Part shown: positions 589-21,137 of the stretch, piece after piece
How the letters are laid out: each line of letters begins with the position of its first letter
Position numbering within the stretch: the stretch's first letter is position 1
From: a virus
Reading direction: 5' to 3' (one strand)
IMG/VR virus record: IMGVR_UViG_3300013094_000325
Coordinates: 1 to 21,459 of that record
Length of the DNA: 21,459 bases
Program-made: the position numbers and the translations under genes
Notes under the pieces: model-generated
The model's database searches: none
The model's input: only the letters and a program-made list of their open reading frames with translations
Told to the model about the DNA's origin: nothing

Positions 589-615
589 AAGCCCTTAGCA
601 ATAAGGGCTTTTTTT
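589..615 (+). terminator. Rho-independent terminator after the acidic protein
   Basis: A perfect 9-bp stem (AAGCCCTTA / TAAGGGCTT) encloses a GCAA tetraloop and is followed by an unbroken T run through 615. It lies 22 nt after the stop of the left-hand gene and touches the stop codon of the convergent terminase gene. Read on the minus strand the stem is followed only by a short T-poor tail, so termination there should be weaker. Confidence 0.9.
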
Positions 616-2398: not shown

Positions 2399-2404
2399 TA
2401 CTTA
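2399..2404 (-). promoter_or_regulatory. Late-promoter-like motif of the terminase gene
   Basis: On the minus strand the sequence reads AGTAAGTA, then 6 nt, then the terminase ATG. It is the same element found before the tail genes on the other strand, which shows that the motif follows gene starts and not strand. It shares a 46-bp divergent gap with the motif of the gene at 2439. Confidence 0.6.
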
Positions 2405-2429
2405 CTATGGATATTTCAAAATATACGTA

Positions 2430-2435
2430 TAAGTC
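2430..2435 (+). promoter_or_regulatory. Late-promoter-like motif, variant TATAAGTC
   Basis: TATAAGTC lies 3 nt before the first ATG and 6 nt before the second ATG of the downstream gene. The 5-6 nt spacing seen elsewhere favours the second ATG (2442) as the start. The last base differs from the usual TAAGTA. Confidence 0.45.
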
Positions 2436-2438
2436 TAT

Positions 2439-3116
2439 ATGATGAATAGTTTAACTCTTACTGACAACAAGTTTAATGCGGATAACTACTGGACAAAATC
2501 TTTAAGAGCGTTTGTAGAGTTTCCTACAGCGGGTGGGCAGGTGGTTTACCCCGGTCCTGAGCTTTTAGAGTTATTTGATCAAGAAGGATATGTTATGACT
2601 GATTTAGAAGTTTCTTATGCAGAAGAAGCTAAAGTAACGTTGGATGAACACTATAGAACGCAAAACTGTATTAGAAGACCTTGGTTTAAACAAGAGGAAC
2701 TAGTGTATGAAGGTGCTAACCTTAATCATAGCTTGTTGTTTGAGAGAAGAGGGTTTTCTGGTGCTGCTTTAGAGCAACTATTACCTTGGGCTCAATGGAA
2801 CTCTCAAATATATAAACTTATTAAGTTAAAACCAAAATGGGGTGTAGACTTTTCTGTAGACTATACAGATAAAGAAGGTAACTGTATAGAGGTTATACAT
2901 TATGAACATGATGAGTTTGATTTCGATAAAATTAACGAAAGAAAAGCATTATTAGAACCTTTATTCTTAAACACAGACTGGAATGACTTTGCTAAGCAAA
3001 TACTAAAACGAAAAGATGAATGGATTAACTTAGATTTATTTGCTCAAGGTGACTGGAAATGCGCTTATATAGGTATTCCAACAGATAGTCAAAAAATGAT
3101 ATCCTGGACGGATTAA
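2439..3116 (+). CDS. Hypothetical protein, 225 aa
   Basis: I do not recognise this protein. It is soluble, acidic and rich in aromatic residues, with no signal peptide or membrane segment. Notable stretches are WGVDFSVDYTDKEG (about 134-147) and a following HYEHDEFDFDKINERK, with D/E and H clusters of the kind seen in metal-binding or enzyme-like folds, but no named catalytic signature. Two ATG codons stand in tandem (2439 and 2442); spacing from the upstream TATAAGTC motif favours the second. It is divergent from the terminase and separated by 39 nt from the nucleotidyltransferase. The position suggests a late or virion-assembly role, but this is weak inference. Confidence 0.8.
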   Translation: MMNSLTLTDNKFNADNYWTKSLRAFVEFPTAGGQVVYPGPELLELFDQEGYVMTDLEVSYAEEAKVTLDEHYRTQNCIRRPWFKQEELVYEGANLNHSLLFERRGFSGAALEQLLPWAQWNSQIYKLIKLKPKWGVDFSVDYTDKEGNCIEVIHYEHDEFDFDKINERKALLEPLFLNTDWNDFAKQILKRKDEWINLDLFAQGDWKCAYIGIPTDSQKMISWTD

Positions 3117-3136
3117 AGTTTCAAATAGACTGGTAT

Positions 3137-3154
3137 TATGTAAATATTTGCATA
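3137..3154 (+). promoter_or_regulatory. Near-palindrome containing a TAAATA promoter-like motif
   Basis: The 18 bases TATGTAAATATTTGCATA are an inverted repeat with a single mismatched pair, lying just before the nucleotidyltransferase ATG at 3156. TAAATA (3141-3146) sits inside it, with a 9-nt spacer to the ATG, longer than the usual 5. It could be an operator over a late-type promoter, or a chance AT-rich dyad. Confidence 0.4.
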
Positions 3155-3155
3155 C

Positions 3156-4217
3156 ATGTTACCGGCTGCTAATAAACTAACTTTTGAATACCATGATAAG
3201 CTTAACCCAGAAATATGGGAGCATGGTAAGCTTAGACCTGAAGTAAAGGAAAAGCTATTAGAAGTTGCAGAAGCGTTTTTAGAGTTTATTGAAATAGATG
3301 TAGATGTTGAAGATATACTGTTTACAGGTTCTTTAGCTAACTACAACTACACACCTTATAGTGATATTGATCTACACATATTAACAGATTATAAGGATTA
3401 TGACGTAGACACGAATCTACTTAAAGATTATTTTAAAGCTAAAAAGACGGTTTGGAATAGCTCTCATACTATAAAGATTAAGAGCTACGACGTTGAAGCA
3501 TATGTACAAGATAAAAATGAAAAACATTATGCTACTGGTATATACTCTATAAAGAATGATAGCTGGTTGGTAGCACCAAGTAAAGTTAAGCCTATCAATA
3601 AAGAAGAGGTAGCTGCTAAAGTAGCTGCAATGCGTGCTACTATTGAACATGCTTTAAGTAATGATTGTGATTTAGAGTGCGCAGAAACAGCTAAAGAAAA
3701 GATACTAAAGACACGTGCAGCTGGTTTAGAGAGAGCTGGTGAGTTCTCAGTGGAAAACCTAGCGTTTAAAGAGTTAAGACGCGCCGGGGATATAGACAGA
3801 CTTATAAAGGGTGTGTTGGCTAAAAAAGATAGTGAGCTATCCTTAAAGCACGAAACGTTTAAAATGTTCAGTAATATGTTCGGTATAGAGAAGGGTGGAA
3901 AGGGTAGTAGAGGTCGTAGAGATCAAGGTATGACAGCCGGTGCTTCAAAGTTAACTAAAACTGATACTAAAAACGTTAACATCGTGGCAGCTGTACATAG
4001 AGAGATGGAAACCCCTTTTCACGAGATTGAAAACTTAAAGAAAAAAGAAAAAGGTAAAACATATCTCACCCCTCAAATAGCTAGCAGTATTGCACGTTGG
4101 TATAATATGAACTTTGAAAAGGTATTAACTGAACCACGTGGTTTAAGTACTTCAGGTATTGTGCTTGGTTATGATCCTTCGGTAAAAAAATACTATCTAC
4201 ATAAAGGTAAAAAATAA
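3156..4217 (+). CDS. Nucleotidyltransferase-fold protein (DNA polymerase beta superfamily)
   Basis: 353 aa. Residues 54-76 contain the superfamily signature: strand ILFTGSLAN, then SDIDLHIL, giving G58-S59 and the metal-binding D70-x-D72. The probable third carboxylate is in strand KSYDVEAYVQ (D112 or E114). Members of this fold transfer nucleotides to RNA, proteins or small molecules; the substrate cannot be read here. Residues about 150-260 are helical and lysine-rich, and the C-terminal part (about 268-353) is a separate segment ending in a basic tail. No antitoxin-like partner adjoins it, so a toxin-antitoxin reading is unsupported. Its stop codon overlaps the next ATG by one base (TAATG), so it is translationally linked to a tube-fold-like tail protein and probably made late. 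The role in virion production is unknown. Confidence 0.8.
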   Translation: MLPAANKLTFEYHDKLNPEIWEHGKLRPEVKEKLLEVAEAFLEFIEIDVDVEDILFTGSLANYNYTPYSDIDLHILTDYKDYDVDTNLLKDYFKAKKTVWNSSHTIKIKSYDVEAYVQDKNEKHYATGIYSIKNDSWLVAPSKVKPINKEEVAAKVAAMRATIEHALSNDCDLECAETAKEKILKTRAAGLERAGEFSVENLAFKELRRAGDIDRLIKGVLAKKDSELSLKHETFKMFSNMFGIEKGGKGSRGRRDQGMTAGASKLTKTDTKNVNIVAAVHREMETPFHEIENLKKKEKGKTYLTPQIASSIARWYNMNFEKVLTEPRGLSTSGIVLGYDPSVKKYYLHKGKK

Positions 4218-4825
4218 TGAGCGATCAAATTACACAACAGGCAGTTCTTAATAAAAGTAGAAAAGATAAATTTAGGTTAATACTAGATTTACCTGATGCT
4301 CTTAAAGGTATTAACGTTACTGATCAAAGTGCTCGAGATAACGAAAACGTTATTCTTAGCTCATTACAATACTCAGTTTATGGTACTGTTGTACCGGTTA
4401 CTACTATAAACCCGACAGTTTTACCGTTTGCTGGTCAGACTTTAAATGTTACATCTGGTAAAAGAGAGAAGTATGAAGATATAACAGTGAACTTTACTGT
4501 TGATAACGGCTTTAATAACTGGTGGGTGCTTTGGAAGTGGTTGGATTATATAAACAGTGCAACAACTGGCTTATTAGATCCGAATAACCTCACCACTCTA
4601 CCTTCTAGCCCAGAACTGTACTCAGGTACTGCAAACTTACAACCTTATCAAACCAATATTACTGTTTACGGGTTAGATGAATACAATAATAACAAAATCC
4701 GTTTTAACTATAGCAAAGCTTTTATTACTAATCTGACAGGAATAACGTACAACTATAGAGACGCAGAGCAAATGGAAGCCTCTTTCACCTTCTCATTCAG
4801 TCAGTTTACCTCAGAATTACTTTAA
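4217..4825 (+). CDS. Tail-tube-fold-like virion protein (putative)
   Basis: 202 aa. The protein looks beta-rich, with no membrane segment. Features are an N-terminal strand FRLILDLP, a central YSVYGTVVP, then YEDITVNFTVDNGFNNWWVLWKWL (about 88-111; helix rich in Trp), and a C-terminal strand pattern ending FTFSFSQFTSELL. This strand-helix-strand order, with ITVNFTVDN before an aromatic helix, resembles the gp19/gp54 tube family, but similarity is weaker than for the proteins at 7254-9093. The start overlaps the nucleotidyltransferase stop by one base, with a purine-rich AAAGG about 8 nt upstream, so it uses translational coupling and lacks the TAAGTA element. It lies directly before the sheath gene. 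It could be a tube initiator, tube terminator or neck-side protein. Confidence 0.5.
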   Translation: MSDQITQQAVLNKSRKDKFRLILDLPDALKGINVTDQSARDNENVILSSLQYSVYGTVVPVTTINPTVLPFAGQTLNVTSGKREKYEDITVNFTVDNGFNNWWVLWKWLDYINSATTGLLDPNNLTTLPSSPELYSGTANLQPYQTNITVYGLDEYNNNKIRFNYSKAFITNLTGITYNYRDAEQMEASFTFSFSQFTSELL

Positions 4826-4857
4826 TTCCACGGGTTTTCCTTTCAAAGAAAGCCTAA

Positions 4858-4877
4858 ATAATAGTAAATACTATTAT
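4858..4877 (+). promoter_or_regulatory. Perfect inverted repeat spanning the sheath promoter-like motif and start codon
   Basis: ATAATAGTA (4858-4866) and TACTATTAT (4869-4877) are exact reverse complements separated by AA. The dyad contains the promoter-like TAAATA (4865-4870), which sits 5 nt before the ATG at 4876, and its right arm runs into the start codon. It could be an operator, or an RNA hairpin hiding the start codon in read-through transcripts. Confidence 0.5.
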
Positions 4878-7233
4878 GGCTACTTTACGTCAAATACAAT
4901 CACCTGGGGTACAAATCAACGAAGTCGATCTATCGCAAACATCTACTACGCCAAACGGAACAAGCGTGTTTATGGTAGGGTATGCCGCGCAAGGTCCTGC
5001 TTCAGAAGTCGTAAATCTTACAACTAATCAAGATTTTCAAAATATTTTCGGTACTCCAACAACTGCCGCTGAACGTTATCTTTATTATTCCGTACAACAA
5101 GTTTTTAATGCAGGTACAAACGCACAAGTAAGCGTCGTACGTTTACCTTATGGTGAAAGTTTAGGCGATGGTTATAACTCAAATGTATATAGCGCATTAG
5201 TTTATCCAGTTATTCCCACTAACTACGCTCCATTACCATTAAGTGCTTCTTCATTAGTAGTACTTGCTTCTGCAGCTGGTTCGATTAATGCTTCTATTAA
5301 TGGTTCACCTACAGCATTATCTGCTGCAGTTTCATATTTCTTTGGTGCTCCAACACTTATTGAGTTATCACAACAAGATTACATTTCATTAAAACAGAAC
5401 GGTGTATATTGGTCATCTCACGGTGGCGGTACCTGCCCTGCTATTACAGGCTTAACTAGCTTATCTGCTACTGGTATTGGTATGATCGTTATTAACGAAG
5501 CTCAAACCACTATCAACGAAAAGTTTGAAGGTTATTATCTTAACTTAGCTGATAATACTAACATCAATCCTAATACTGACTTTACTGCAGCTCAAAAACT
5601 ATTCAGTGTTGCACAAGACCTTGGTTTAGGTGTTGCTGCTTCATATGTACCAGTACCAAATAGCCGCTTAACATTTGAGTTAAGTGCAGTATTTACAGAT
5701 CAAACTGGCAGCGTTTCACAAACAGTCGAAAACATTCCTACGTATGACATCTCGACATTCGGTCTAGGTGGTTTCAGTGATTTAGGTATCTTATCGTTGT
5801 TTAAAGTTAAGACTTCGCCTTTCGGTAATAATCCTTTAGCTCTTAACTACACTCTACAAGAAGGGTATGCTGCTTCATTCTATGTAAACCGTACAATACA
5901 AGACGTAAACGGTGGTGCACCTGTAAACGATTTCATGCAGAACGTTGTTAACGATGCATCAACTCAGATTTCAGTATTAATCAACCCACATATTTCAAAC
6001 AACTTAGGTTGGTTAGATTCATCCGGCAATGCTACAAAGTGTGCAAGAGTATTTACAACAGACTTAGCTAACTATATCCTAACTAACTTTAGTAACTTAG
6101 AAGGCTATGCAGCTGGTGATGCTCTATTCCCATTAGGTGTATATGCTCCTTCCTTAAACACTACAGCTAACAAACAAATCGGTGACGTAGCTGGTAAGTT
6201 AGAAACAGTAATAAACACTGTAGCTAATAAAGATCTTTATAACATCGATGTTATTTGCGATGCTGGTCTTTCAACTATTGCTGGTTACGCTGGCGTAAAT
6301 GTAACAGGTATATTTGATGATACATTGTTTAACTCTACTATTACTAATAGTATTAGCGGTTTAACATTATCAAACGGTACATATCAACCAGATGCGGTTG
6401 TTCAGTATTGGTCACAAGTAACTAACCAGTTCGTTGAACTTGCTGGTAGTATTCGTAAGGATTGTATCTTTATATCTGACCCACTACGTGGTATATTTGT
6501 ACAAGGTACAAACTTTAAGACTCTAAACAATAAGAGTCTTAACTTCTCGTCTAACATTTACTGGCCATTAAATAACCTTTATACGCCAATTAATACAAGT
6601 TATGCAGCTGCTTATGCAAACTGGGTATCAATAATCGATCAGTTTACAAATAACCCAGTCTGGATGCCATTCTCAGCATACGCTGCAGCAGCTTATACAA
6701 ATAACGATGCAGTAGCTTATCCTTGGGGTGCACCTGCTGGTTTAACACGTGGTGCTATTACAGGTGTAACAGACATTGCGATTAACCCACAACAAAGCCA
6801 ACGCGATCTGCTTTATAAAGCATCTATTAACCCTGTAGTAAACTTCCCAAATGAAGGTGTTTCTATATACGGTCAAAAGACGTTATTAGCAGTACCAAGT
6901 GCATTTGATCGTATTAACGTACGTCGTTTATTCTTATTCTTAGAAAAATCAGTATTAAATACTTCAAAGTATTTCGTATTTGAACCAAACACAACGTTTA
7001 CACAAAACCGTTTAGTAAGCACTATTAAGCCAGTGTTTGAACTAGCTAAGAATACTCAAGGCATTTACGACTACTTAATCGTATGTAACTCAACTAACAA
7101 TACACCAAGTGTTGTTGATGATAACTCGCTTGTTGTAGACATCTACATTAAGCCAGTACGTACAGCAGAGTTTATCTTAATAAACTTCTATTGCACTAAG
7201 ACATCACAAGACTTCAACGAGTTACTACAATAA
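4876..7233 (+). CDS. Tail sheath protein (T4 gp18-like)
   Basis: 785 aa; forms the contractile outer sheath of the tail. The N-terminus has the sheath hallmark SPGVQINEVDLSQT (9-22), followed by a GTSVFMVGYAAQGP strand and the QDFQNIFGTP motif that begins the conserved sheath core. The C-terminus matches the gp18 end domain very well: YDYLIVCNSTNNTPSVVD, then DIYIKPVRTAEFILINF, closing with DFNELLQ. T4 gp18 is about 659 aa, so the extra 120 or so residues probably sit in the variable surface domains (roughly residues 110-450). Codon use favours CGT and other codons of highly expressed genes, more than in the neighbouring terminase. The start is set by TAAATA plus 5 nt and lies within a dyad; there is no Shine-Dalgarno. 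Confidence 0.95.
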   Translation: MATLRQIQSPGVQINEVDLSQTSTTPNGTSVFMVGYAAQGPASEVVNLTTNQDFQNIFGTPTTAAERYLYYSVQQVFNAGTNAQVSVVRLPYGESLGDGYNSNVYSALVYPVIPTNYAPLPLSASSLVVLASAAGSINASINGSPTALSAAVSYFFGAPTLIELSQQDYISLKQNGVYWSSHGGGTCPAITGLTSLSATGIGMIVINEAQTTINEKFEGYYLNLADNTNINPNTDFTAAQKLFSVAQDLGLGVAASYVPVPNSRLTFELSAVFTDQTGSVSQTVENIPTYDISTFGLGGFSDLGILSLFKVKTSPFGNNPLALNYTLQEGYAASFYVNRTIQDVNGGAPVNDFMQNVVNDASTQISVLINPHISNNLGWLDSSGNATKCARVFTTDLANYILTNFSNLEGYAAGDALFPLGVYAPSLNTTANKQIGDVAGKLETVINTVANKDLYNIDVICDAGLSTIAGYAGVNVTGIFDDTLFNSTITNSISGLTLSNGTYQPDAVVQYWSQVTNQFVELAGSIRKDCIFISDPLRGIFVQGTNFKTLNNKSLNFSSNIYWPLNNLYTPINTSYAAAYANWVSIIDQFTNNPVWMPFSAYAAAAYTNNDAVAYPWGAPAGLTRGAITGVTDIAINPQQSQRDLLYKASINPVVNFPNEGVSIYGQKTLLAVPSAFDRINVRRLFLFLEKSVLNTSKYFVFEPNTTFTQNRLVSTIKPVFELAKNTQGIYDYLIVCNSTNNTPSVVDDNSLVVDIYIKPVRTAEFILINFYCTKTSQDFNELLQ

Positions 7234-7241
7234 CCTTAACA

Positions 7242-7247
7242 TAAGTA
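7242..7247 (+). promoter_or_regulatory. Late-promoter-like motif of the tail tube gene
   Basis: CATAAGTA precedes the tube ATG at 7254 with a 6-nt spacer (TTTAAT). There is no purine-rich ribosome binding site between it and the ATG. The element fills most of the 20-nt gap after the sheath stop codon. Confidence 0.6.
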
Positions 7248-7253
7248 TTTAAT

Positions 7254-7787
7254 ATGTCACAAACAATACAAGACTTCTACAGAGTAGCACAGCAAAGAGA
7301 TTTCGCAAGGGATTACATGCTTCGTGTTGTCTCTATCGGTAATAATACATTTAATGAAGATGACTTCGTGTATATTACTACTGCTACCTTACCTGACAGA
7401 GCTATTACAAATCAGAACGCTACATATATGGGGTTAAAGTTTAACTTCCCTGGCACAGTAACATATCCTGGCAGTGAAAAGTGGGATATTACTTTCCGTG
7501 CTGATAAAGCTGGTTTGATTCGTAATAAACTCGAAACATGGCAAAGAAGCTTAATATTCGATGATCAAACAAGTACAGGTGACTTGTCTGTAAGAGGTAC
7601 AAATAGCGTTATTCAACTTAATCAGATTGATGATAAGCTAAATGTGCTTAATACATACACCCTTTACGGAGCTTACCTACAATCTTTAGGTGCTATCAAG
7701 TATGACATTACAGGTACTGGTAAAGTACAAGAGTTTACTGCAAGCTTAGCTTACCATTTCTGGACAGATTCAGTAGTAGGTACTTAA
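7254..7787 (+). CDS. Major tail tube protein (T4 gp19-like)
   Basis: 177 aa, close to T4 gp19 (163 aa); polymerises into the inner tube inside the sheath. Family features in order: N-terminal helix IQDFYRVAQQRDFARDY, a LPDRAIT turn, the strand EKWDITFRAD (77-86), a helix LETWQRSLIFD, and the C-terminal hairpin TYTLYGAYLQSLG followed by YDITGTGKVQEF. It directly follows the sheath gene, as in T4, and is the shortest and most canonical of the tube-like proteins here. It is the only one closed by its own terminator, which fits the high copy number of a major tube subunit. Confidence 0.92.
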   Translation: MSQTIQDFYRVAQQRDFARDYMLRVVSIGNNTFNEDDFVYITTATLPDRAITNQNATYMGLKFNFPGTVTYPGSEKWDITFRADKAGLIRNKLETWQRSLIFDDQTSTGDLSVRGTNSVIQLNQIDDKLNVLNTYTLYGAYLQSLGAIKYDITGTGKVQEFTASLAYHFWTDSVVGT

Positions 7788-7809
7788 TAGTTTAAAGTTA
7801 TTATAAATG

Positions 7810-7834
7810 ACCCGGCTGAAAAGTCGGGTTTTTT
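7810..7834 (+). terminator. Rho-independent terminator after the tail tube gene
   Basis: A 7-bp stem ACCCGGC / GTCGGGT (one G-T pair) with the loop TGAAAA is followed by six T residues (7829-7834). It lies 22 nt after the tube stop and before the promoter-like motif of the next gene, so sheath and tube form a separate transcription unit or are terminated in part here. Confidence 0.9.
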
Positions 7835-7847
7835 ATTGTTTAAAGCT

Positions 7848-7853
7848 TAAGTA
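7848..7853 (+). promoter_or_regulatory. Late-promoter-like motif, restart after the terminator
   Basis: CTTAAGTA with a 5-nt spacer (TTAGT) to the ATG at 7859. It stands only 14 nt after a terminator T run, which is good positional support for real promoter activity. Confidence 0.68.
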
Positions 7854-7858
7854 TTAGT

Positions 7859-8452
7859 ATGGCTGATTTACCTAGTATAACGGATTTTTACTCCCAAGCA
7901 CAAAAGATTGGCTTCGGTAAAAAGTACAATTTTAAGGTAACTAGCATAGATTATATACCAAACGATCCAGGTGTAGGTTACGATAAAAATTACCTATTAT
8001 ATGTTGAATCGCTTAATATACCATCACGTAATATAGCTACAACCACAGTTCCGTACAAATCATTTGACTTTGTAGCACCAACAGTAGCAACGTTTCCTGA
8101 TAAACAGAACTGGAAGATAAACTTCTTTTCTGATGATAAACTACTAATAAGAAAAATGTTTGAAGGTTGGAGCGAAGCTTTATACGATAATCAAACAAAT
8201 AGCACTTATTATGATAAAGGATCTATTAGTACTAACGCTGCTTCTCGTACTAATGACGGTATTGGTTTTGGTTACTGCAATATAAAGCTACAAATAGTAA
8301 GCGAAACAGAAGAAGAAGCAGCATCTACATACACCTTATATGGTGCCTTCCCAACTCAAGTGGGTAGCATGGATTACAGTATATCCGACAATGGTAGCAC
8401 AGTAGCTAAGTTGCCAGTTACAATAGCTTTTCAATATTTTGACGTAACTTAA
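7859..8452 (+). CDS. Tail tube paralogue (gp19 family)
   Basis: 197 aa. It shares the gp19-family order with the protein at 7254: ITDFYSQAQKIGFGKKY at the N-terminus, the turn IPSRNIATT, the strand QNWKINFFSDD, and the C-terminal STYTLYGAFPTQVGSMDYSI. The last TGTGKVQ-type turn is altered to SDNGSTVAKL, and there is an extra loop of about 20 residues near position 110-135 (Ser/Asn/Thr rich). It has its own promoter-like motif downstream of a terminator. It is probably a minor tube-like ring at the baseplate or tail end and not the main tube; this is inference from gene order and divergence. Confidence 0.8.
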   Translation: MADLPSITDFYSQAQKIGFGKKYNFKVTSIDYIPNDPGVGYDKNYLLYVESLNIPSRNIATTTVPYKSFDFVAPTVATFPDKQNWKINFFSDDKLLIRKMFEGWSEALYDNQTNSTYYDKGSISTNAASRTNDGIGFGYCNIKLQIVSETEEEAASTYTLYGAFPTQVGSMDYSISDNGSTVAKLPVTIAFQYFDVT

Positions 8453-8455
8453 CTA

Positions 8456-8461
8456 TAAGTA
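8456..8461 (+). promoter_or_regulatory. Late-promoter-like motif, closest match TATAAGTA
   Basis: TATAAGTA with spacer TTAAT before the ATG at 8467. This is the copy nearest to the T4 late promoter TATAAATA, differing only by A to G at position 6. Confidence 0.68.
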
Positions 8462-8466
8462 TTAAT

Positions 8467-9093
8467 ATGCCTTCACAGCAAACATTAACTTCATTTTACA
8501 ACTCTATACAAAAGTATGGGTTTACAAGAGATTTTCAGGCCAGGGTAGATAATCTTGTCATTAACGGCACACCATTCGATATATCTGGGGAAGATAGTTT
8601 GCTTTATATTAAAAATTTTTCATTACCTAGCATGAAGAAAGCTATAACCACAGTAAAGTACTTTGGTGTAGATGTACATTCAGTAGGTACTAGAGATTTC
8701 GGTAGTAGCAAAGATTGGGATGTTACTTTCTACTTGGATGGTAACTCTCAGTTTAAGTACTGGCTAGAAAGACGTTTAGTTGAAACATCTTCAAATAATA
8801 TTTCTAACTCGTTAAACAGTATTGAATCATCTAACATAGCTACTCAACTAGCTAACTTTAACCCAATACCTAATGCAGAAGATAACTACGCATTAATATC
8901 TGTTTATGATGATCAACTAAACCCAGTTACTTCTTACGAAATAAACGGCTTGTTTATTATTGATATTCCTAGTGTGGGTTACAGCTTAGATGGTACAGGT
9001 AAGATACAAGAGATTAAAGTAAAGTTCGGTTATCAAAACTGGAACTATGCTACAGGTACTACACCAGAACTATTACCTGGTGATCAACAATAA
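8467..9093 (+). CDS. Tail tube paralogue (gp19 family)
   Basis: 208 aa. N-terminal LTSFYNSIQKYGFTRDFQARV, then LPSMKKAITT, strand KDWDVTFYLDG, and C-terminal TSYEINGLFIIDIPSVGYSL followed by DGTGKIQEI align feature by feature with the tube proteins at 7254 and 7859. A variable Asn/Ser-rich insert lies at about 118-145. A 14-residue tail after the last conserved strand is absent from the major tube protein. It lies 14 nt after the previous paralogue, in the same orientation. Likely a baseplate-proximal or terminal ring of the tube. Confidence 0.8.
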   Translation: MPSQQTLTSFYNSIQKYGFTRDFQARVDNLVINGTPFDISGEDSLLYIKNFSLPSMKKAITTVKYFGVDVHSVGTRDFGSSKDWDVTFYLDGNSQFKYWLERRLVETSSNNISNSLNSIESSNIATQLANFNPIPNAEDNYALISVYDDQLNPVTSYEINGLFIIDIPSVGYSLDGTGKIQEIKVKFGYQNWNYATGTTPELLPGDQQ

Positions 9094-9098
9094 AATAA

Positions 9099-9797
9099 AT
9101 GGCTCTTAACGTAAAGAACAATAGTACGTTTCTACAAAATGTACTCTCTAACCCTGACTTTCATATACCAGTCGAGGCAAACTTTATTGTTTCTTTTTCT
9201 AACTTAAACGGCACTATTGGTACACCAGGTATATTAGACAACTTAAGTTACAACTATAACGGTGGTGCTAATGGTTCTCTCAATACTATACTTGATAAGA
9301 TAAACATTGATAACCAGTACTGGACTACGTTAACAAATGATGACATATTTTTTGCTAATGGAGTAACACTACCTGGAGAATCAGTAAAAGCTTCTCGTGC
9401 TGGTTACTCTCATGCAGATACTTCATCCTTGGCAGGTGGGTTTCTTTCTGCTCCTGTTTTAAATGGTAGGTCTGATACAACTAACTTTGAGATAACATTT
9501 CTCGAAACAAACGTATCATTTGTGGATTACGTAATAAGGCCTTGGATTATAGCTGCTTCTCATTTCGGTTTATTTGCACGTAACGGTGGTACTCAAAACT
9601 TTAAGTCAGATGTAACTATAAACTTCTTGAACAAGACTTCTCCAGAAGCAGATCTAGACTTACGTAAAGTGTTTCAGTTTAGAGGTGCTGTACCTTTATC
9701 TGTTGAAGCAGCAAATATAGGTTATGGCAGTACTAAGAACACTGGAATGCGTAGTATTAGAACTACATGGACATATTCCACGTACGAAGTAATTTAA
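9099..9797 (+). CDS. Putative tube-fold or baseplate protein, 232 aa
   Basis: It follows the tube paralogues after 5 nt and keeps a similar outline: a VEANFIVSFSNL strand at the N-terminus, FFANGVTLPGESV (about 85-97) in the place of the tube LPxR turn, the strand NFEITFLETN, then a helix VSFVDYVIRPWIIAASHFG, and a C-terminal beta hairpin ending WTYSTYEVI. The usual FYxxAQ helix and TGTGK motif are missing, so it is a remote member of the fold or a different baseplate protein such as a gp54-like initiator. There is no TAAGTA element; the ATG is preceded by an AT-rich stretch, TAAAATAA, without a clear Shine-Dalgarno. Confidence 0.6.
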   Translation: MALNVKNNSTFLQNVLSNPDFHIPVEANFIVSFSNLNGTIGTPGILDNLSYNYNGGANGSLNTILDKINIDNQYWTTLTNDDIFFANGVTLPGESVKASRAGYSHADTSSLAGGFLSAPVLNGRSDTTNFEITFLETNVSFVDYVIRPWIIAASHFGLFARNGGTQNFKSDVTINFLNKTSPEADLDLRKVFQFRGAVPLSVEAANIGYGSTKNTGMRSIRTTWTYSTYEVI

Positions 9798-9802
9798 TAT
9801 AA

Positions 9803-10720
9803 ATGCCATTCAAGTTAAATGCTTATCTGCCTAGCAAAAAGCTAGAAACGCAGATAAAAGAGCTTTATTACAAGCAGTATAGAGAGTTGGTTAAAAGTTT
9901 ATATAACGTAGACAAAAAAGAAACCATACAACAATACAACTCTATACTGGAGGACTTATGTCCAGAGGTAGCAGGCAAGGATATAACATTTGAAGATAAG
10001 CTCTCCCTACTATTAACTGTAAGAAACTATTGTGTAAGTCCTGATTTGAGATTAAAATGTACGTTGCCAGATGGTGGCGGGTTTACTATTTCCATTCTCG
10101 TTGAAAGCTTGATAGAATCGGTAAAAAAGATCGATAAATCCGGTACTGTTGAGTATAACGATGTAACTGTAACTTACTCGTCTTATAAAATAAGAGATGA
10201 GTATGTTTTCCTTAGTAATAACAAAGATAAATTTGATATCTTAGCCTCGTACATAGATACTATTAAAATAGGAGAACAAAGCGTAGATTTTAAGGATTTA
10301 ACGTTTAATGATAGGTTAAACATTGTTACAGAGTTGCCATTAGAACTAACTAATATGTTATACCAAAATATACAAGTATTAGAACAAAAATACGAAGCTT
10401 TGGATTTTATAACAGTAAAAAGCCCGGTAGACAATAGCGTTGTATTAAGGTTATCATGTAACATAACGGCAAGCACGTTACAACAAACAATATCTTTCCT
10501 GTTTACAGAAAACTTAAACAATGTGTACAAAGCGTTTTATAACATTGTGAGACATGCAGGGTTTAGTGCGGATTATGTAGACAGTATTACTCCAGTTGAA
10601 CTACAAGTATATTGGATGTATTATATGCAAGATGTAGAGAAGGTTAATGCACAACAAGCAGAAAACAAGCAATCTACAGGCGGATTACCAGTTACTAATA
10701 ACTCAGAGCTAGGCTTTTAA
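9803..10720 (+). CDS. gp26-like tail assembly protein, long copy (putative)
   Basis: 305 aa, soluble and helical. Its second half contains LTFNDRLNIVTELPLELTNML (about 164-184), which matches in pattern LLYKDRLTVIESLPANTLLEI of the next protein; both are preceded by a beta segment and an acidic stretch. This DRL-x-I/V-V-x-x-LP motif and the place just upstream of the tape measure fit the T4 baseplate protein family around gp26, which acts in hub assembly. An N-terminal repeat of the theme, ITFEDKLSLLLTVRN (about 60-74), suggests internal duplication. It starts 6 nt after the previous stop with no clear Shine-Dalgarno. A tail-assembly chaperone role is inferred from position. Confidence 0.6.
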   Translation: MPFKLNAYLPSKKLETQIKELYYKQYRELVKSLYNVDKKETIQQYNSILEDLCPEVAGKDITFEDKLSLLLTVRNYCVSPDLRLKCTLPDGGGFTISILVESLIESVKKIDKSGTVEYNDVTVTYSSYKIRDEYVFLSNNKDKFDILASYIDTIKIGEQSVDFKDLTFNDRLNIVTELPLELTNMLYQNIQVLEQKYEALDFITVKSPVDNSVVLRLSCNITASTLQQTISFLFTENLNNVYKAFYNIVRHAGFSADYVDSITPVELQVYWMYYMQDVEKVNAQQAENKQSTGGLPVTNNSELGF

Positions 10721-10730
10721 GATCTCCCGG

Positions 10731-10736
10731 TAAGTA
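10731..10736 (+). promoter_or_regulatory. Late-promoter-like motif
   Basis: GGTAAGTA followed by TTTTT and the ATG at 10742. The whole 21-nt intergenic gap is taken up by this element and a short GC-rich leader (TCCCGG). Confidence 0.65.
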
Positions 10737-10741
10737 TTTTT

Positions 10742-11491
10742 ATGGCTAATGTAAACGATTTTTTGGCAGCTCTTAATAGCTTATCAGAGAAAAACTCTGT
10801 AGAAGTATTCTTACCTGCTGTACAGAGAACGGTAAAGTTTAAACCTCTTAGTGCTAAACAGCAAAAGAGTTTTTATAACTGTATTAAAGATAATATTCTT
10901 TTTAATACAAAGTTTACTTTAACTTCTTATACTATTATTAAGGATAACTGCTTAGAACAAGAAGTAGTAGATAAACTAACCATAATAGACCGTGTCATTG
11001 TATTACTTGCATTACGTAAGGCATCTTTAGGTTCCAAGTTAAATGTAGCTGGTTACGATGTCACACTCGATGATTGCTTACAGCAAGTAACTAACATTAC
11101 AGTACCTACTAATAAGACTGTTACAATAGAAAACATACAGATTGAGATAGGGGTACCTTTAGCAGCAGAGCAATATTTAATGGAAAAGCAGTTAAGAGAG
11201 AACCTACAAAGCGAGTCTCGTACTATACATGAAGCTGCTGGTGATTTAATACTAAATGGTATTTGTTTGTATATTAAAAAGCTCTGGATAAACGGTGTAG
11301 CTCTAAACTATGAAGAGTTGCTATATAAAGACCGTTTAACAGTTATAGAAAGCTTACCAGCTAATACACTTCTTGAAATACAAGAGTATGCTAGTGTGGT
11401 TACAAACACTATTAATAGTATACTTGAAATAGAAGTTGAACCTAACACTAAGGTAGCTGTTGCGATTACATCGGATTTGTTTTTAAACTAA
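10742..11491 (+). CDS. gp26-like baseplate/tail assembly protein
   Basis: 249 aa. The opening VEVFLPAVQRTVKFKPLSAKQQKSFY (about 20-45) is typical of the T4 gp26 family (T4 base plate protein), in which a short beta hairpin leads into FKPL and a Lys/Gln-rich helix. The C-terminal part has the LLYKDRLTVIESLPANTLLEIQEY segment (about 196-219). There are no membrane segments. T4 gp26 is about 208 aa. With the preceding protein it forms a pair of probable diverged copies directly before the tape-measure-like gene, the position of tail assembly chaperones in many phages. No slippery site joins the two; each has its own start. Confidence 0.72.
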   Translation: MANVNDFLAALNSLSEKNSVEVFLPAVQRTVKFKPLSAKQQKSFYNCIKDNILFNTKFTLTSYTIIKDNCLEQEVVDKLTIIDRVIVLLALRKASLGSKLNVAGYDVTLDDCLQQVTNITVPTNKTVTIENIQIEIGVPLAAEQYLMEKQLRENLQSESRTIHEAAGDLILNGICLYIKKLWINGVALNYEELLYKDRLTVIESLPANTLLEIQEYASVVTNTINSILEIEVEPNTKVAVAITSDLFLN

Positions 11492-11515
11492 CAGTGTAAA
11501 AAATACTTTGATCCC

Positions 11516-11521
11516 TAAGTA
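11516..11521 (+). promoter_or_regulatory. Late-promoter-like motif of the tape-measure-like gene
   Basis: CCTAAGTA followed by TTTTC and the ATG at 11527. It is preceded by a 24-nt intergenic stretch with no other visible feature, and no ribosome binding site intervenes. Confidence 0.66.
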
Positions 11522-11526
11522 TTTTC

Positions 11527-13620
11527 ATGTCCGATTTAACTGAATCAATAAAAGCCCTCGGTGAAAAAACTGAAGGTGTATCTGATTCTATAAAAAACCT
11601 ACCAGAGCAGATATCCGCTACCTTAAATAAGAGCATTGGTAGTAATATTAAGAAAGCTCTAGAAGAAGGTAAGCTGCTTACAGCTTTAAATAAACTACCT
11701 GATACTCTTAGTCAAGCAATAGATAAAAGCACTTTAACTACAAAGTTAACAGAGTTTTCAGCTGAGTTAAACGGACAACAACAGCAAACTGAACTGTATT
11801 ATAGTCAGTTACAGGAAGTGGTTGAAGATAATAAAAAGCTTTTAACGATTACTGAAAGTTCTTTAAAAAAATCAGATGAAACTGCGGCTGCTCTTAAACA
11901 GTTAGCAGCTAACGATACTACTCGTCTGCAAATGGAAAAGGAAAAGGCTAAAGCTGCAGGTACTGAAAAGAAAGATGAAGCAGCTGCTCAGTTACCTGTC
12001 ACTGAAGGCAATAAAGGAGACACTTTAAATCAAAGACGTGCTGAGTTTGCTCGTAATGCTCAAGCAAGTAGGTTAGATTTAAAAATAAAAGAGTTTGAAC
12101 AAAGTGATGAAGGGAAAGCTTATTTAGCTAAAAAAGCTGAAGCAGAAAATGTAGGCAAACAGTTCAACTTTAATGAAATGGACATGTTTGATCGCGGTCC
12201 ATTAGGCAATCTTTTAGTGTCACTCGGTAAGGGTAATGTTTTTGGAGATGTTTTAAAGAAGCAAACTATGGAAGAGTTTGCAAAGAATAACAAAGACGAA
12301 AAGGCTAAAGAATACGAGAAGAATAAAGCTGCTAAAGAAGCACTAGAGAAAAAAACGGAAAAAGATAAAGAAGCTGAACAACTCAAAGAACTTGGGCTCA
12401 CACCAGATGAAGCTGAAAAGCTTATAGCTGGAGAAGTTAAGCCAGAAAACATTTTAAGTAAAACTGCTTCGGATGTTGAAAAGAAAAATAAAGAAAAGAC
12501 TATCTTTGAAGAAGATAGAGAAGAAAAACTCAAAGAAGAAGCAGCTCAAGCTAAAGTCAAAGAAGAAGAAAAAGAAGAAGGTATAGAAGAAGACGAAGAA
12601 GGTAATGAAGTAAATGAAGATATAACTAAAACAATAAAAGTCGATATTGTAGATATTGATGATGATCTTATTGTAAAAATCGGTAAAATACTTAAAGACA
12701 TTTTAAGCAGTGAGCCAGAAGAGACTGAAAATGAAGCTGAAGCAAGTACAGGTGAGGTTGCACCTGTAGAAAAAGAACTTGCACCTGGCGTAGAAAAAGT
12801 AATAAACAAAAAAGGCGTCACTCAGTATAGAGATAAGAGTTCGAAAAAGTTTGTAAGTAAAGAAACTGCATATAAGACCGAAAAAGAAGAAGAGGAAAAA
12901 GAAGCGCCAGAACAAAAACCAGTAGTAGCAGAGACGTTACCTACCTCAGAACCAAAACCAGTCACCCCAAGTGCAGCTGCAGATGTTGCTAAAGCAGGTA
13001 AATCTGGTTCCGGTCTGTCAAGTTTTGTAGAAGGCTTCGGTGGTCTATTTGAAACTATAGGCGGTTTATTTTTAGCTGATGGCGGTGATATTGATGCAAA
13101 CCAGCCTGCAATCGTAGGGGAAAGAGGTCCTGAGCTATTTACACCTGCTTCTAAGGGTAGTATCACTTCAAATAGTAACTTAAAGAATAGTGAAATAAGG
13201 GGTTATAGTCGTGGTAAAGTAACTGGAGACTCTCCAACTCAAAGACCTGCAAACGGTATAACCAATAATACTACTAATAACGTAGGCGGGGAATCTGCTA
13301 CAGAAAATATAGCTAATAGTAATACTAATGTAACAGCTGTTCACTCTACTGCTTTAGAAACCATATCTAAGACTGAAACTATAAAAGAAAGTTCTAGTGA
13401 TATGTTAAAGACTATTAATCAATCTTTGCAAGAGATTAGCAATAAGCTATCTAATAACAATACATCAACAGCTAATAATAGTAATAGTAGCATAAGCAAT
13501 AGTAACACTATAGGTAGCGCGCAAAGTACTACTATTAATGTACAGGCTACAGGAAATCCTATTACTAACTCACGGCTTAAAACCGATAATATGATGTATA
13601 ATAGAAGGGCCGCAACTTAA
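11527..13620 (+). CDS. Tape-measure-like / gp29-like central tail protein
   Basis: 697 aa. The C-terminal third has the signature common near the end of many phage tape measure proteins: ADGG (517-520), then IVGERGPELFTPASKG (529-544). The first 150 residues are helical. Residues about 190-400 are strongly charged K/E-rich coiled coil, and a very acidic stretch follows near 340-360. After residue 560 the sequence turns into Asn/Ser/Thr-rich low complexity. There are no hydrophobic transmembrane stretches, unusual for tape measures of siphophages but closer to T4 gp29, the hub protein that sets tail length. It follows the gp26-like pair and precedes the tube-cap-like protein, consistent with gp29. 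At about 0.15 nm per residue the length would suggest a tail near 100 nm; that is a rule of thumb. Confidence 0.78.
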   Translation: MSDLTESIKALGEKTEGVSDSIKNLPEQISATLNKSIGSNIKKALEEGKLLTALNKLPDTLSQAIDKSTLTTKLTEFSAELNGQQQQTELYYSQLQEVVEDNKKLLTITESSLKKSDETAAALKQLAANDTTRLQMEKEKAKAAGTEKKDEAAAQLPVTEGNKGDTLNQRRAEFARNAQASRLDLKIKEFEQSDEGKAYLAKKAEAENVGKQFNFNEMDMFDRGPLGNLLVSLGKGNVFGDVLKKQTMEEFAKNNKDEKAKEYEKNKAAKEALEKKTEKDKEAEQLKELGLTPDEAEKLIAGEVKPENILSKTASDVEKKNKEKTIFEEDREEKLKEEAAQAKVKEEEKEEGIEEDEEGNEVNEDITKTIKVDIVDIDDDLIVKIGKILKDILSSEPEETENEAEASTGEVAPVEKELAPGVEKVINKKGVTQYRDKSSKKFVSKETAYKTEKEEEEKEAPEQKPVVAETLPTSEPKPVTPSAAADVAKAGKSGSGLSSFVEGFGGLFETIGGLFLADGGDIDANQPAIVGERGPELFTPASKGSITSNSNLKNSEIRGYSRGKVTGDSPTQRPANGITNNTTNNVGGESATENIANSNTNVTAVHSTALETISKTETIKESSSDMLKTINQSLQEISNKLSNNNTSTANNSNSSISNSNTIGSAQSTTINVQATGNPITNSRLKTDNMMYNRRAAT

Positions 13621-13623
13621 GTA
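13618..13623 (+). promoter_or_regulatory. Late-promoter-like motif overlapping a stop codon
   Basis: TAAGTA here begins with the TAA stop codon of the tape-measure-like gene and is followed by TATAT and the ATG at 13629. The same sharing of TAA between stop codon and motif is seen at 16842. Confidence 0.62.
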
Positions 13624-13628
13624 TATAT

Positions 13629-14891
13629 ATGTCGGTTTATAATCCAGGCGGTACAGCTCCTTCTTCTACACCACCACCAATAGGGTTTGGTGGTTATAGA
13701 ACCTGTTCTACCCCCACAAGAGGTGGTGCGCCTATATTAAATGCTGATAGTCAAGGAAATCCAGATCAACCAGTAGCGTTTAATGTGCATGATACATATG
13801 CTTGGGCTTTAAATGGTTCAGCTGCATTAAAGAGTTATGTGCCGAAAATAGAGTTAACAGAGTTTAAACTTACTAGTTCGAGTGTTGCTCAAGCCTTACA
13901 ACTGAGTATAGCTCAAAATACTACTAATCCTGTTGCAAGGGCAGCGTTTGGTGCAAATGCAGGTCAAGCTATCGGTGCAATTGGTGGTGCAGCAGCTGGG
14001 TTAGTAACAGGCGGTCCTTTAGGTGCTGTAGCAGGTGCAACTGCTGGTGCGGCTGGTGGTGGAATATTAGGTGCAGGTCTTGCAACAGCAACAGATTTTA
14101 CAAGTTTATTTGGTTTTTCTGCTAATAACCCATATAAAGGTTTATATGTGGGTAACCCAACAAAGTTTACATACACTTTACCTTACTTAAGCCCAGACAA
14201 CATGGTAGCAACCAGTATAGGTACATGGTCAGCGGTTGAAGAGGGTAAAGGCGCTGCTTTGATTACTAATGCAGCTAAAGCCGCTGGACACGCAGCATTT
14301 GGTAAGCTAGGTTCAGCACTTGCAGGTAAAGTTGCTGGAGGGCTTGAAGAAGGCTTAAAAGACGCTACTGCTATAAACGATGCTATATTAATGTTATCTG
14401 AGCCAGGTGTGTCAAAAGAAAAGATTAAGATCTTTACACCTAGCGAACAAGGTGATTCAGTTACAACAACGTTTTATTTGTTTAATACAGAAAGCGTGCA
14501 AGATATTGTCAACAACTGGTACTTTCTCTTTACTTTAACTTATCAGAACTTACCTAATAGAAGATCTATTAACTTGATGGATCCGCCTTGCATGTACACA
14601 GTAACTGTACCAGGTTATAAGTACCTTCCTGTTGCGTACATAGATAGTATGAAAGTACAGAACATAGGTACTACTCGTTTAGTAGATATAACTACAGGTA
14701 ATGTTTCAACAGTTTCAGATGCTGCTGTTAATAGCAACGTGAAGATTATTCCAGAAGCTTATAAAGTCACAATAAAACTACAGAGCGTGTTTATGAACTC
14801 ACAAAATCTGTTCTATTATGCAGCTAATCAGTCTATTTCTAAAGTAAGCGTATTTGAACCTACTCCAGGAACAGGAATACAAGGATTATAA
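13629..14891 (+). CDS. Baseplate tube-cap-like protein (gp48/gp54-like) with glycine zipper
   Basis: 420 aa. The C-terminal half (about 265-410) has a tube-cap outline: TTTFYLFNTESVQDIVNNWYFLF, a PPCMYTVTVPGYKYLP strand, MKVQNIGTTRLVD, and IPEAYKVTIKLQSVFMNSQNLFY. The last pattern is typical of gp48/gp54-type proteins that close the tube at the baseplate. Residues 108-152 are an Ala/Gly-rich glycine zipper with repeated GxxxG and GAAAG spacing, and a second Ala-rich helix lies near 210-246. Such zippers are normally membrane-inserting helices and are unexpected in a cap protein. T4 gp48 is about 364 aa; the zipper region would account for the extra length. The stop is 1 nt before the next gene's ATG. 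Confidence 0.65.
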   Translation: MSVYNPGGTAPSSTPPPIGFGGYRTCSTPTRGGAPILNADSQGNPDQPVAFNVHDTYAWALNGSAALKSYVPKIELTEFKLTSSSVAQALQLSIAQNTTNPVARAAFGANAGQAIGAIGGAAAGLVTGGPLGAVAGATAGAAGGGILGAGLATATDFTSLFGFSANNPYKGLYVGNPTKFTYTLPYLSPDNMVATSIGTWSAVEEGKGAALITNAAKAAGHAAFGKLGSALAGKVAGGLEEGLKDATAINDAILMLSEPGVSKEKIKIFTPSEQGDSVTTTFYLFNTESVQDIVNNWYFLFTLTYQNLPNRRSINLMDPPCMYTVTVPGYKYLPVAYIDSMKVQNIGTTRLVDITTGNVSTVSDAAVNSNVKIIPEAYKVTIKLQSVFMNSQNLFYYAANQSISKVSVFEPTPGTGIQGL

Positions 14892-14892
14892 T

Positions 14893-15273
14893 ATGAACGC
14901 AGAACCATTAAAACAAAACAATATATCGGTTTTACCTACTTTAAGTTTACTTAACTTTGAAAACCTGTTTAATGTGTATAGTGAAAATGTTTATGGTACT
15001 CAGCAGAACTTTTTCTATAACTTAATTAGTACAGTAAACATACCAAATAACTTAGACCAGAGTACATACACCACTTATACAGTTACTAGTGATAACTTAC
15101 CGTGGACTCTTATTTCTCAAAAATGCTATAACACACCGCAGTTATGGTGGCTTATATGCTGTGTTAATAATATACAAAACCCGATCAACTTTCCAAAAGC
15201 AGGTACAGTTTTAAAAGTGCTAACACCAAGTTACGTGTCTAGCATATTACAACAAATAAACCAAGTGGTATAA
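14893..15273 (+). CDS. Baseplate wedge protein (gp53-like, LysM-like)
   Basis: 126 aa counted from the ATG at 14893 (MNAEPLKQNN). A longer reading from TTG at 14854 would overlap the previous gene, whereas the ATG has AAGGA (14881-14885) 7 nt upstream, a good Shine-Dalgarno. The second half holds a LysM-like unit: YTVTSDNLPWTLISQKCYNTPQLWWLICCVNN, then a Pro/Gly turn and VLKVLTPSYV. This combination is typical of the T4 gp53 wedge family; gp53 (196 aa) is longer, so this is a compact form. It is tightly packed between the cap-like protein (1 nt gap) and the hub (1 nt overlap), so the three are probably translated together. Confidence 0.72.
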   Translation: MNAEPLKQNNISVLPTLSLLNFENLFNVYSENVYGTQQNFFYNLISTVNIPNNLDQSTYTTYTVTSDNLPWTLISQKCYNTPQLWWLICCVNNIQNPINFPKAGTVLKVLTPSYVSSILQQINQVV

Positions 15274-16844
15274 TGCTAGTTTCAAATCTAACAGTACAAA
15301 ACATCCCCACTTCTGAAAACAATACCAAGCTATATAACGGTCAAAAATATCAAATAGATATTATTTTTGATAACTTGCAAGGTAATAAGTTTCAGCTGAA
15401 CCTGGCTAGTATGGTGTCTTTAGATATTGAGGAAGATAGTAGAACTTGGTATAAAAGAGCTAGTTTAGTAATAAAGAACCCTGATAATGTATTTGAACAG
15501 AAAATAGTATCTACTGCTTTACCAACTCAGTATTACAAGTTCCGTAATGATGGTAGAGACGTTGTTTATATAACTGTTAAGATTGTAAATGATAGTACTT
15601 TAGGTCAAGTTGATGCAAATGTTGATTATAATGTATGGGGTATGTCTTATGCTTTTGCAATATATGATAGAGAAGAGATACCTGGTGATAATACAAAACT
15701 TAAACAGTTAAAGCTTTATTTGTGGGAGTTTGAACAGCAAGTACTAAGTGAAACTACACTGCAGTGGTCAACAAATAACCTATTACCATCAAACGTAATA
15801 CCAGCCTCTGCATCTGATACACAAAAATATGTTAAGACTGGTAATGCTATTAAAAACTTGTTAACTACTGCTTTAGCAAACTATGTTACACCTGTATTTA
15901 CTAGTACGTGGGATATAGGTTCAAGTAATACATTTTATAGCTCTCCTTCAAACTGGACAGCAGATGATAACTTAAACTATTTGTTAAAAAAGCATGTAAG
16001 TGCACCTGTTGGTACTGATGGTGGCCAGGACCCTTGTATCCTTACCCGTAATCGTTATGATAATAACTGGAAGCTTATTTCATATACTACTTTATTTAAC
16101 CAAGCTGTAAACTCTAGTTCAAATGGTATAGGAATATCTATTCCAACAGCTGGTTCATTACAAAGAGAAATCATAACCTTGTCTATGCAGGGTGGTGTGG
16201 ATCAAAACGAGTATTTGTTTAACTTACCGCAATCGCCTTTTAACTCTAATACATCTAACACAAACTTTAACAGCCCTATTACAAGTGTTATAAAGAATAT
16301 AAACTTTGTAGATATGTCTCCTATAGACAGTTCACGAGACATGATTAGCACTCCTTGTTATAGTAATGATATAAAGAATAAACTGTTTAATGTAGACTTT
16401 GCAAGCAATGACATACAAAATGTAAAAACGTTTGTAAAGAACAACTACGCAAACAAGCTCAAGTTGTATTCTGCACCAGATACATTAATAACTTTAAATA
16501 AGACTAAAACAGATACTCTAGCTGTTAATCACGTTTATTCTTATAGTCCAGATAAAGTAAGTCAGTTAGCTGAAGGTAGAAACTTTTTATTAGCATCTGC
16601 TTTGTATTATAATACATCTGTAAGTTTTACCACACTTGGGGTACCTATTAGAGAGGCTAACACATTTATTAGTATTGAAAAAGGGCAAGGCGGTGTAATA
16701 GATGAGTTCTTTAACAAGTTACTTGGACAGTGGTTAATATGCAATGTGGTGCACCGTTTTACACAAGGTAACTACATTAATGATGTTACCGCTCTTAGAG
16801 TACACGCTAACGATAACATTGATATAAAGAGTAATATAACTTAA
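15273..16844 (+). CDS. Baseplate hub protein (gp27-like)
   Basis: 523 aa. The start overlaps the wedge stop by one base (TAATG). Features: an N-terminal beta-rich domain with VSLDIEEDSRTWYKRASLVIKNP; a middle region of the hub type with KTGNAIKNLLTTAL; and an ending GQWLICNVVHRFTQGNYINDVTALRVH, the strand-turn-strand pattern of gp27/gpD-family hubs, in which the last beta hairpin packs on the spike. T4 gp27 is about 391 aa, so this version carries extra sequence, most likely Asn/Ser-rich loops in residues 200-350. It is followed by a promoter-like element and lies two genes from the gp5-like spike, its expected partner. Confidence 0.68.
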   Translation: MLVSNLTVQNIPTSENNTKLYNGQKYQIDIIFDNLQGNKFQLNLASMVSLDIEEDSRTWYKRASLVIKNPDNVFEQKIVSTALPTQYYKFRNDGRDVVYITVKIVNDSTLGQVDANVDYNVWGMSYAFAIYDREEIPGDNTKLKQLKLYLWEFEQQVLSETTLQWSTNNLLPSNVIPASASDTQKYVKTGNAIKNLLTTALANYVTPVFTSTWDIGSSNTFYSSPSNWTADDNLNYLLKKHVSAPVGTDGGQDPCILTRNRYDNNWKLISYTTLFNQAVNSSSNGIGISIPTAGSLQREIITLSMQGGVDQNEYLFNLPQSPFNSNTSNTNFNSPITSVIKNINFVDMSPIDSSRDMISTPCYSNDIKNKLFNVDFASNDIQNVKTFVKNNYANKLKLYSAPDTLITLNKTKTDTLAVNHVYSYSPDKVSQLAEGRNFLLASALYYNTSVSFTTLGVPIREANTFISIEKGQGGVIDEFFNKLLGQWLICNVVHRFTQGNYINDVTALRVHANDNIDIKSNIT

Positions 16845-16847
16845 GTA
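16842..16847 (+). promoter_or_regulatory. Late-promoter-like motif overlapping the hub stop codon
   Basis: The TAA of the hub stop (16842-16844) forms the first half of TAAGTA, followed by TTAAT and the ATG at 16853. The spacer is identical to that at 8456. Confidence 0.64.
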
Positions 16848-16852
16848 TTAAT

Positions 16853-20895: not shown

Positions 20896-20901
20896 TAAAT
20901 A
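20896..20901 (+). promoter_or_regulatory. Promoter-like TAAATA element of the 74-aa gene
   Basis: ACATAAATA is 11 nt before the ATG at 20913. It matches the T4 late hexamer core better than TAAGTA does, but the spacing differs from the 5-6 nt rule, so this mRNA would have a leader of about 5-6 nt. Confidence 0.45.
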
Positions 20902-20912
20902 TATTAACTAAT

Positions 20913-21137
20913 ATGAAGTTTCAGCAACTCTTAGAACAATACGGTATGATAAAGAAAGAACAGCGCATGTTCTACCCTAAAAACTTTAACTTATCTGAAG
21001 GATTTCTAAAAGCACTTAAAGCTGAGATTGCTTTGCAAGAAAAACAAGGCATTACACCTGAAAAATTTTCTCACAAGTTAAATAGAGCGCTTCAGTTCCA
21101 TATTTCGGAACATAAAAAAACCCCTGCACCGAAGTGA
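20913..21137 (+). CDS. Small hypothetical phage protein, 74 aa
   Basis: The sequence MKFQQLLEQYGMIK followed by helical, Lys-rich segments makes a small basic protein with no membrane segment. The opening is similar in outline to SKFQKLYEDAI of the protein at the left edge: K-F-Q, two or three residues, then L-x-E. Short N-terminal stretches of this kind, with (L/I)-x-E cleavage sites, mark internal head proteins in T4, so a packaged internal protein is one possibility, held with low confidence. The last codons and the TGA stop lie inside a terminator hairpin that works for the opposite strand. The ATG has an upstream TAAATA element. The coding assignment rests on its plausible amino acid composition and the promoter-like element. 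Confidence 0.62.
   Translation: MKFQQLLEQYGMIKKEQRMFYPKNFNLSEGFLKALKAEIALQEKQGITPEKFSHKLNRALQFHISEHKKTPAPK

Follow-up and report, generated by a model that had tools for sequence, protein, structure and literature searches.

In a deep, uncultivated lineage of T4-related freshwater phages, the sequence TAARTATT ahead of start codons is, with a probability of roughly 85%, a late promoter of the gp55 type that yields leaderless or nearly leaderless mRNAs. As read from the genome sequences, the RNA polymerase of the host, equipped with the late sigma factor gp55 of the phage, would recognise TAARTATT, presumably tied to the sliding clamp as in T4, and transcription would start 5-6 nt past the element, on the A of the start codon or 1 nt before it. 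Most late transcription units would then give mRNAs with leaders of 0-5 nt, on which ribosomes would engage the 5'-terminal AUG without a Shine-Dalgarno (SD) sequence. Genes that abut or overlap the upstream gene would have no promoter, would lie on the same mRNA and would probably be translated mainly by coupling or reinitiation. Early genes of the lineage would be treated likewise, by means of host sigma70-type promoters.

The window analysed, 21,459 bases long, is an entire IMG/VR record from a T4-related phage and encodes the terminase large subunit (TerL), four tail tube-like proteins, a sheath, a baseplate hub-like protein and other tail proteins. The original prediction placed TAAGTA or TAAATA at a fixed distance from nine start codons, and all nine elements are found where it put them, with a gap of 5 nt in seven genes and of 6 nt in two (Table 1). 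The sheath, tube and terminase have phrog matches, and 11527-13620 is only a candidate tape-measure gene. Three more starts are preceded by related forms, namely TAAGTC before 2442 and TAAATA before 3156 and 20913. The coupled starts at 9099, 9803, 14893, 15273 and 18109, like the one at 4217, have no element. The four tail tube-like genes (4217-4825, 7254-7787, 7859-8452 and 8467-9093) are gp19-like paralogues, all matching phrog_45, within one tail cluster.

Table 1. Putative late promoter elements and associated features in the window; the gap is the number of nucleotides between element and ATG.
Feature	Position	Strand	Remarks
TerL gene	614..2392	-	phrog_5989/phrog_2, E ~2e-50
Putative late promoter element TAAGTA, gap 6, for terminase	2399..2404	-	orthologue gaps 6 or 5
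Near-match TAAGTC, 6 nt ahead of the second ATG (2442) of ATGATG at 2439/2442	2430..2435	+	
TAAATA, 9 nt ahead of gene 3156	3141..3146	+	leader would be ~4 nt
Tail tube-like gene, coupled, without element	4217..4825	+	
Putative late promoter element TAAATA, gap 5, for tail sheath 4876-7233	4865..4870	+	sheath phrog_23, E=3e-69
Putative late promoter element TAAGTA, gap 6, for tail tube-like gene 7254-7787	7242..7247	+	phrog_45
Terminator-like inverted repeat and T run, directly upstream of the next putative late promoter	7809..7834	+	read from sequence
Putative late promoter element TAAGTA, gap 5, for tail tube-like gene 7859-8452	7848..7853	+	
Putative late promoter element TAAGTA, gap 5, for tail tube-like gene 8467-9093	8456..8461	+	
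Putative late promoter element TAAGTA, gap 5, for baseplate hub-like gene 10742-11491	10731..10736	+	phrog_150, E=3e-6
Putative late promoter element TAAGTA, gap 5, for 11527-13620 (697 aa)	11516..11521	+	gap 5 kept in G001-G004
Putative late promoter element TAAGTA, gap 5, for 13629-14891	13618..13623	+	TAA is the upstream gene's stop codon
Putative late promoter element TAAGTA, gap 5, for 16853-18109	16842..16847	+	TAA also ends 15273-16844 as its stop codon
TAAATA, 11 nt ahead of small gene 20913-21137	20896..20901	+	weak candidate

TAARTA stands at gap 5-6 before 9 of the 19 gene starts of the window, against a mean of 0.233 (maximum 4) in 20,000 rounds of shuffling of the 40-nt upstream regions with dinucleotides kept (Poisson P ~5e-12). 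Window-wide there is no over-representation of TAARTA, with 47 occurrences found and 85 expected by shuffling. An equal frequency at other spacings was looked for and not seen. Such words are, it is true, made more likely by TAA stop codons and by spacers rich in AT, but the probability that the pattern arose by chance or from the composition of AT-rich intergenic DNA is practically negligible in view of the shuffled counts, of a reversed control pattern that is rarer in relatives, of the retention of the element in orthologues and of the repetition of the pattern in held-out contigs. Among the 29 distinct TerL starts the gap is 6 in 12 and 5 in 7, toggling between these values while the surrounding sequence turns over. 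The site corresponding to 2430..2435 reads TAAGTT in relatives, with a gap of 5 or 6, and orthologues of gene 3156 keep a gap of 9-10 at 17 of 20 starts.

A TerL search found 78 loci on IMG/VR contigs, most of them at 74-100% identity, and the nearest cultured phages reach only ~36%. In the TerL tree the lineage lies on a long branch, separate from T4, phiM12 and the cyanophage/HTVC008M group, and the DNA polymerase tree unites it with C48C1, via another long branch and away from HTVC008M. TAARTA was counted at each distance from ATG starts, taken as longest-ORF calls except for hand-checked ones, in nine contigs and control phages, with the pooled set later comprising 11 contigs. Of 761 ATG starts in this set, 131 (spanning 50 protein families) have the element at gap 5-6, 79 at gap 7-10, which would give leaders of 2-5 nt, and 10 at gap 0-4. 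These contigs have orthologues in common and their counts are not independent, which is countered by the family counts and by two contigs (G021 and G022) fetched once the pattern was fixed, in which 26 of 237 starts bear the element with the same spacing pattern. Within the lineage the element precedes 126 of 467 uncoupled starts vs 5 of 294 coupled ones. In 22 cases, including 13618 and 16842 of the window, the preceding gene has its stop codon in the TAA of the element, so that stop, putative promoter and start fit in 14-15 nt.

The element is specific to late genes, being present at 55 of 98 uncoupled late-gene starts and at 2 of 34 uncoupled replication-gene starts (Fisher P=7e-8). The original prediction of a T4-type late promoter is supported, at the level of sequence, in this respect and by the proteins of close relatives: contig G004, whose TerL is 90% identical to that of the window, encodes a gp55 homologue (phrog_234, E=4e-17), with many other homologues among viral contigs, and a gp45-like clamp (phrog_223, E=2.7e-10; Pfam PF02916 not reached), both of which come from relatives and not from the window's own 21-kb record. 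In keeping with that class of promoter, the family-weighted profile has no conserved hexamer near -35. The coactivator gp33 (phrog_254) had no match in 17 contigs, in a search where the controls were also silent, and by synteny a 100-aa gene near gp32 in G004 has no resemblance to gp33. The lineage consensus is TAARTATT, in which the TAARTA core is present but the leading TA of T4's TATAAATA is not conserved over the 50 families; known late-promoter variants include CTAAATA of Aeh1 (PMC1524935). The T4 element ends at -6 (PMC1524935), so that a gap of 5 would put +1 on the A of the ATG, as originally proposed, and a gap of 6 would give a 1-nt leader; by the T4 rule, the fixed spacing thus leaves at most 1 nt between the likely start of transcription and the ATG.

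SD sequences are found at 1 of 131 element-bearing starts and at 5 of 250 other uncoupled starts in the lineage, both below a control stretch, and at 50-71% of uncoupled starts in T4, phiM12 and HTVC008M and 35% in Syn9. The statement that no SD lies between motif and ATG is correct but trivial, since there is no room for one; the figure of 1 in 131 covers the sequence farther upstream as well. The SD strings noted at the coupled starts 4217, 14893 and 18109 are real, but in the lineage such strings are barely above background (33 of 280 coupled starts vs 20 of 280 in the control stretch, P=0.08; in held-out contigs 6 of 94 vs 11 of 94), which leaves the proposal of ordinary ribosome binding sites for coupled genes a weak one. 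With no clear use of SD at internal genes, coupling or reinitiation is more likely.

The fixed distance to the ATG and the general lack of SD would also suit a translation signal in the mRNA, that is, a non-SD ribosome site whose UAAG pairs with the CUUA end of 16S rRNA, with the true promoters elsewhere; the complement of UAAG is indeed present at the 3' end of 16S rRNA. This explanation is improbable. The pairing is broken in TAAATA, which makes up about half of the family weight, the element is missing from the replication genes of the same phages, and those genes have sigma70-like boxes at equal distance. TAARTA is avoided inside genes, as judged by codon shuffles, and on their antisense strand too; the avoidance is modest and supports a promoter without being decisive, given that AATT-containing words are avoided more. 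The major capsid gene provides independent evidence. Its TAARTA lies 61-71 nt upstream, in most cases preceded by a terminator, and the leader downstream of it holds a conserved, covarying six-pair hairpin (GTTGAAGNNN-loop-NNNCTTGAG) with compensatory changes (L293:925-1003, L296, L301, L303, L312, L332 and others): three pairs are changed on both sides, all cells are paired, and no slid version is comparable. An element so far upstream, ahead of a hairpin leader, behaves as a DNA promoter and not as a ribosome signal, and the capsid gene, as the leadered exception, argues for the promoter nature of the element. In Rfam, the window has no hit above threshold and the capsid leader has no match. 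More distant T4-like capsid genes have a different structured-looking leader (TGAGGC..GCCTGA..GGTCGA..AAGGAG).

The leader of the major capsid gene and the tail of gaps at 7-10 could be taken to mean that the promoters are real but that transcription starts farther upstream, or that the mRNAs are processed, leaving a short functional leader. Such an arrangement is quite improbable: the family-weighted composition reveals no upstream enrichment of a further promoter-like element, the frames of TerL and the divergent 2442 gene are ~46 nt apart and both promoters must fit within that gap, and the 22 elements mentioned above overlap the stop codon of the preceding gene.

Promoters fused to the start codon, as proposed here for late genes, appear not to be confined to them. 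Replication and early genes have promoters resembling TTGAnn-16-TATAAT that end 5-8 nt ahead of the ATG, with 9 vs 0.31 in shuffles for contig G001, 15 vs 0.46 for the held-out contigs, and none at this gap in T4. Two distinct promoter types at one distance are what leaderless transcription predicts, and the equal closeness of the early promoters to the ATG suggests that late genes are not alone in being leaderless. TA-like boxes ~10-12 bp upstream of starts are the mark of leaderless bacterial genes (PMC3160421), and a -10 box at this distance is present in the lineage. In some relatives TATAAT-ACTACT-ATG replaces the late element at the sheath gene: the starts in L033, L042, L026 and L080 read TATAATACTACT-ATG (sigma70-like) and that of the window reads TAAATACTATT-ATG (late type), possibly a switch of promoter class.

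Several known systems resemble this arrangement in part. The late system of T4 is the textbook case of a sigma/clamp promoter, with mRNAs that normally have SD leaders. Late promoters of T4 (TATAAATA at -13 to -6, served by gp55, gp33 and gp45) have, like those proposed here, a short -10-like box without a -35 element ahead of late structural genes, and the lineage likewise encodes a gp55 sigma and a gp45-like clamp; it differs in the box itself (TAARTATT), in the lack of SD and in that gp33 was not detected. Moreover, in T4, Syn9, phiM12 and C48C1 the element is mostly 16-35 nt upstream of the start, as against 5-6 nt in the lineage. In Actinobacteria and Deinococcus-Thermus, leaderless genes carry TANNNT ~12 bp before the start and share with the lineage a -10 box fixed ~11-12 bp ahead of the ATG and first genes without SD, whereas the lineage is a phage in which host sigma70-type promoters and late promoters of the phage both follow the rule. 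AG-345-L05, a single-cell marine virus related through its sheath, was considered as sharing the arrangement and rejected, because its spacing is ordinary, mostly 17-34 nt, and it has SD sequences.

A parallel in culture is Pelagibacter phage HTVC008M (Kyanoviridae), with ten TAAATA-5-ATG starts, several of them TATAAATA-N5-ATG, at late genes that include gp2, gp4, gp48 and the tape measure. HTVC008M differs in that SD is kept at 71% of its other uncoupled starts, and it groups with cyanophages, far from the lineage; the late element of cyanophages being distant from the start, the fusion of promoter and start probably arose twice. The failure of a late-promoter search in pelagimyophages by the cyanophage method (PMC7029224) fits the start-adjacent elements of HTVC008M. 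In this phage the divergent gp2 and gp4 genes (18392-18916, minus strand, and 18943-19440, plus strand) have start codons 26 nt apart, with the gap filled by two back-to-back late elements. It is reasonably likely that nearly every transcription unit of the freshwater lineage, early and late, is leaderless through host sigma70-type and gp55 promoters fused to the start, with a single long structured leader at the capsid gene and SD almost abandoned, and that HTVC008M evolved the late half separately.

Within the collection of papers searched, there was no report of leaderless late transcripts in T4-like phages. If the proposed reading is correct, transcription and translation start signals can be fused genome-wide, making promoter and start codon one unit, and a host with efficient leaderless translation is predicted. 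Searches for that host, with an exact 52-nt piece of a phage tRNA-Gly gene, matched no genome, and the alignment of the lineage's TerL against a collection of 84,980 genomes gave no relative. No WhiB and no bS21 came up when looked for, so that an actinobacterial host and a Bacteroidia host both lack support. The element would also tell annotators the true start ATG and may account for the failure, in other T4-like groups, of late-promoter searches designed around cyanophages, and the cultured HTVC008M makes the fusion idea directly testable.

Two minor observations concern the genomes of the relatives. AATT-containing hexamers (GAATTT, AATTCA and others) occur at ~0.55-0.65 of the codon-shuffled expectation in the coding sequences of G001, G002, G005, G006, G011 and G015, which is perhaps restriction avoidance. 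In G004, several glycosyltransferase-like genes adjoin gp46 and stand between gp46 and gp47 (L121:3160-4323 and L121:7906-11195), which suggests DNA or surface modification.
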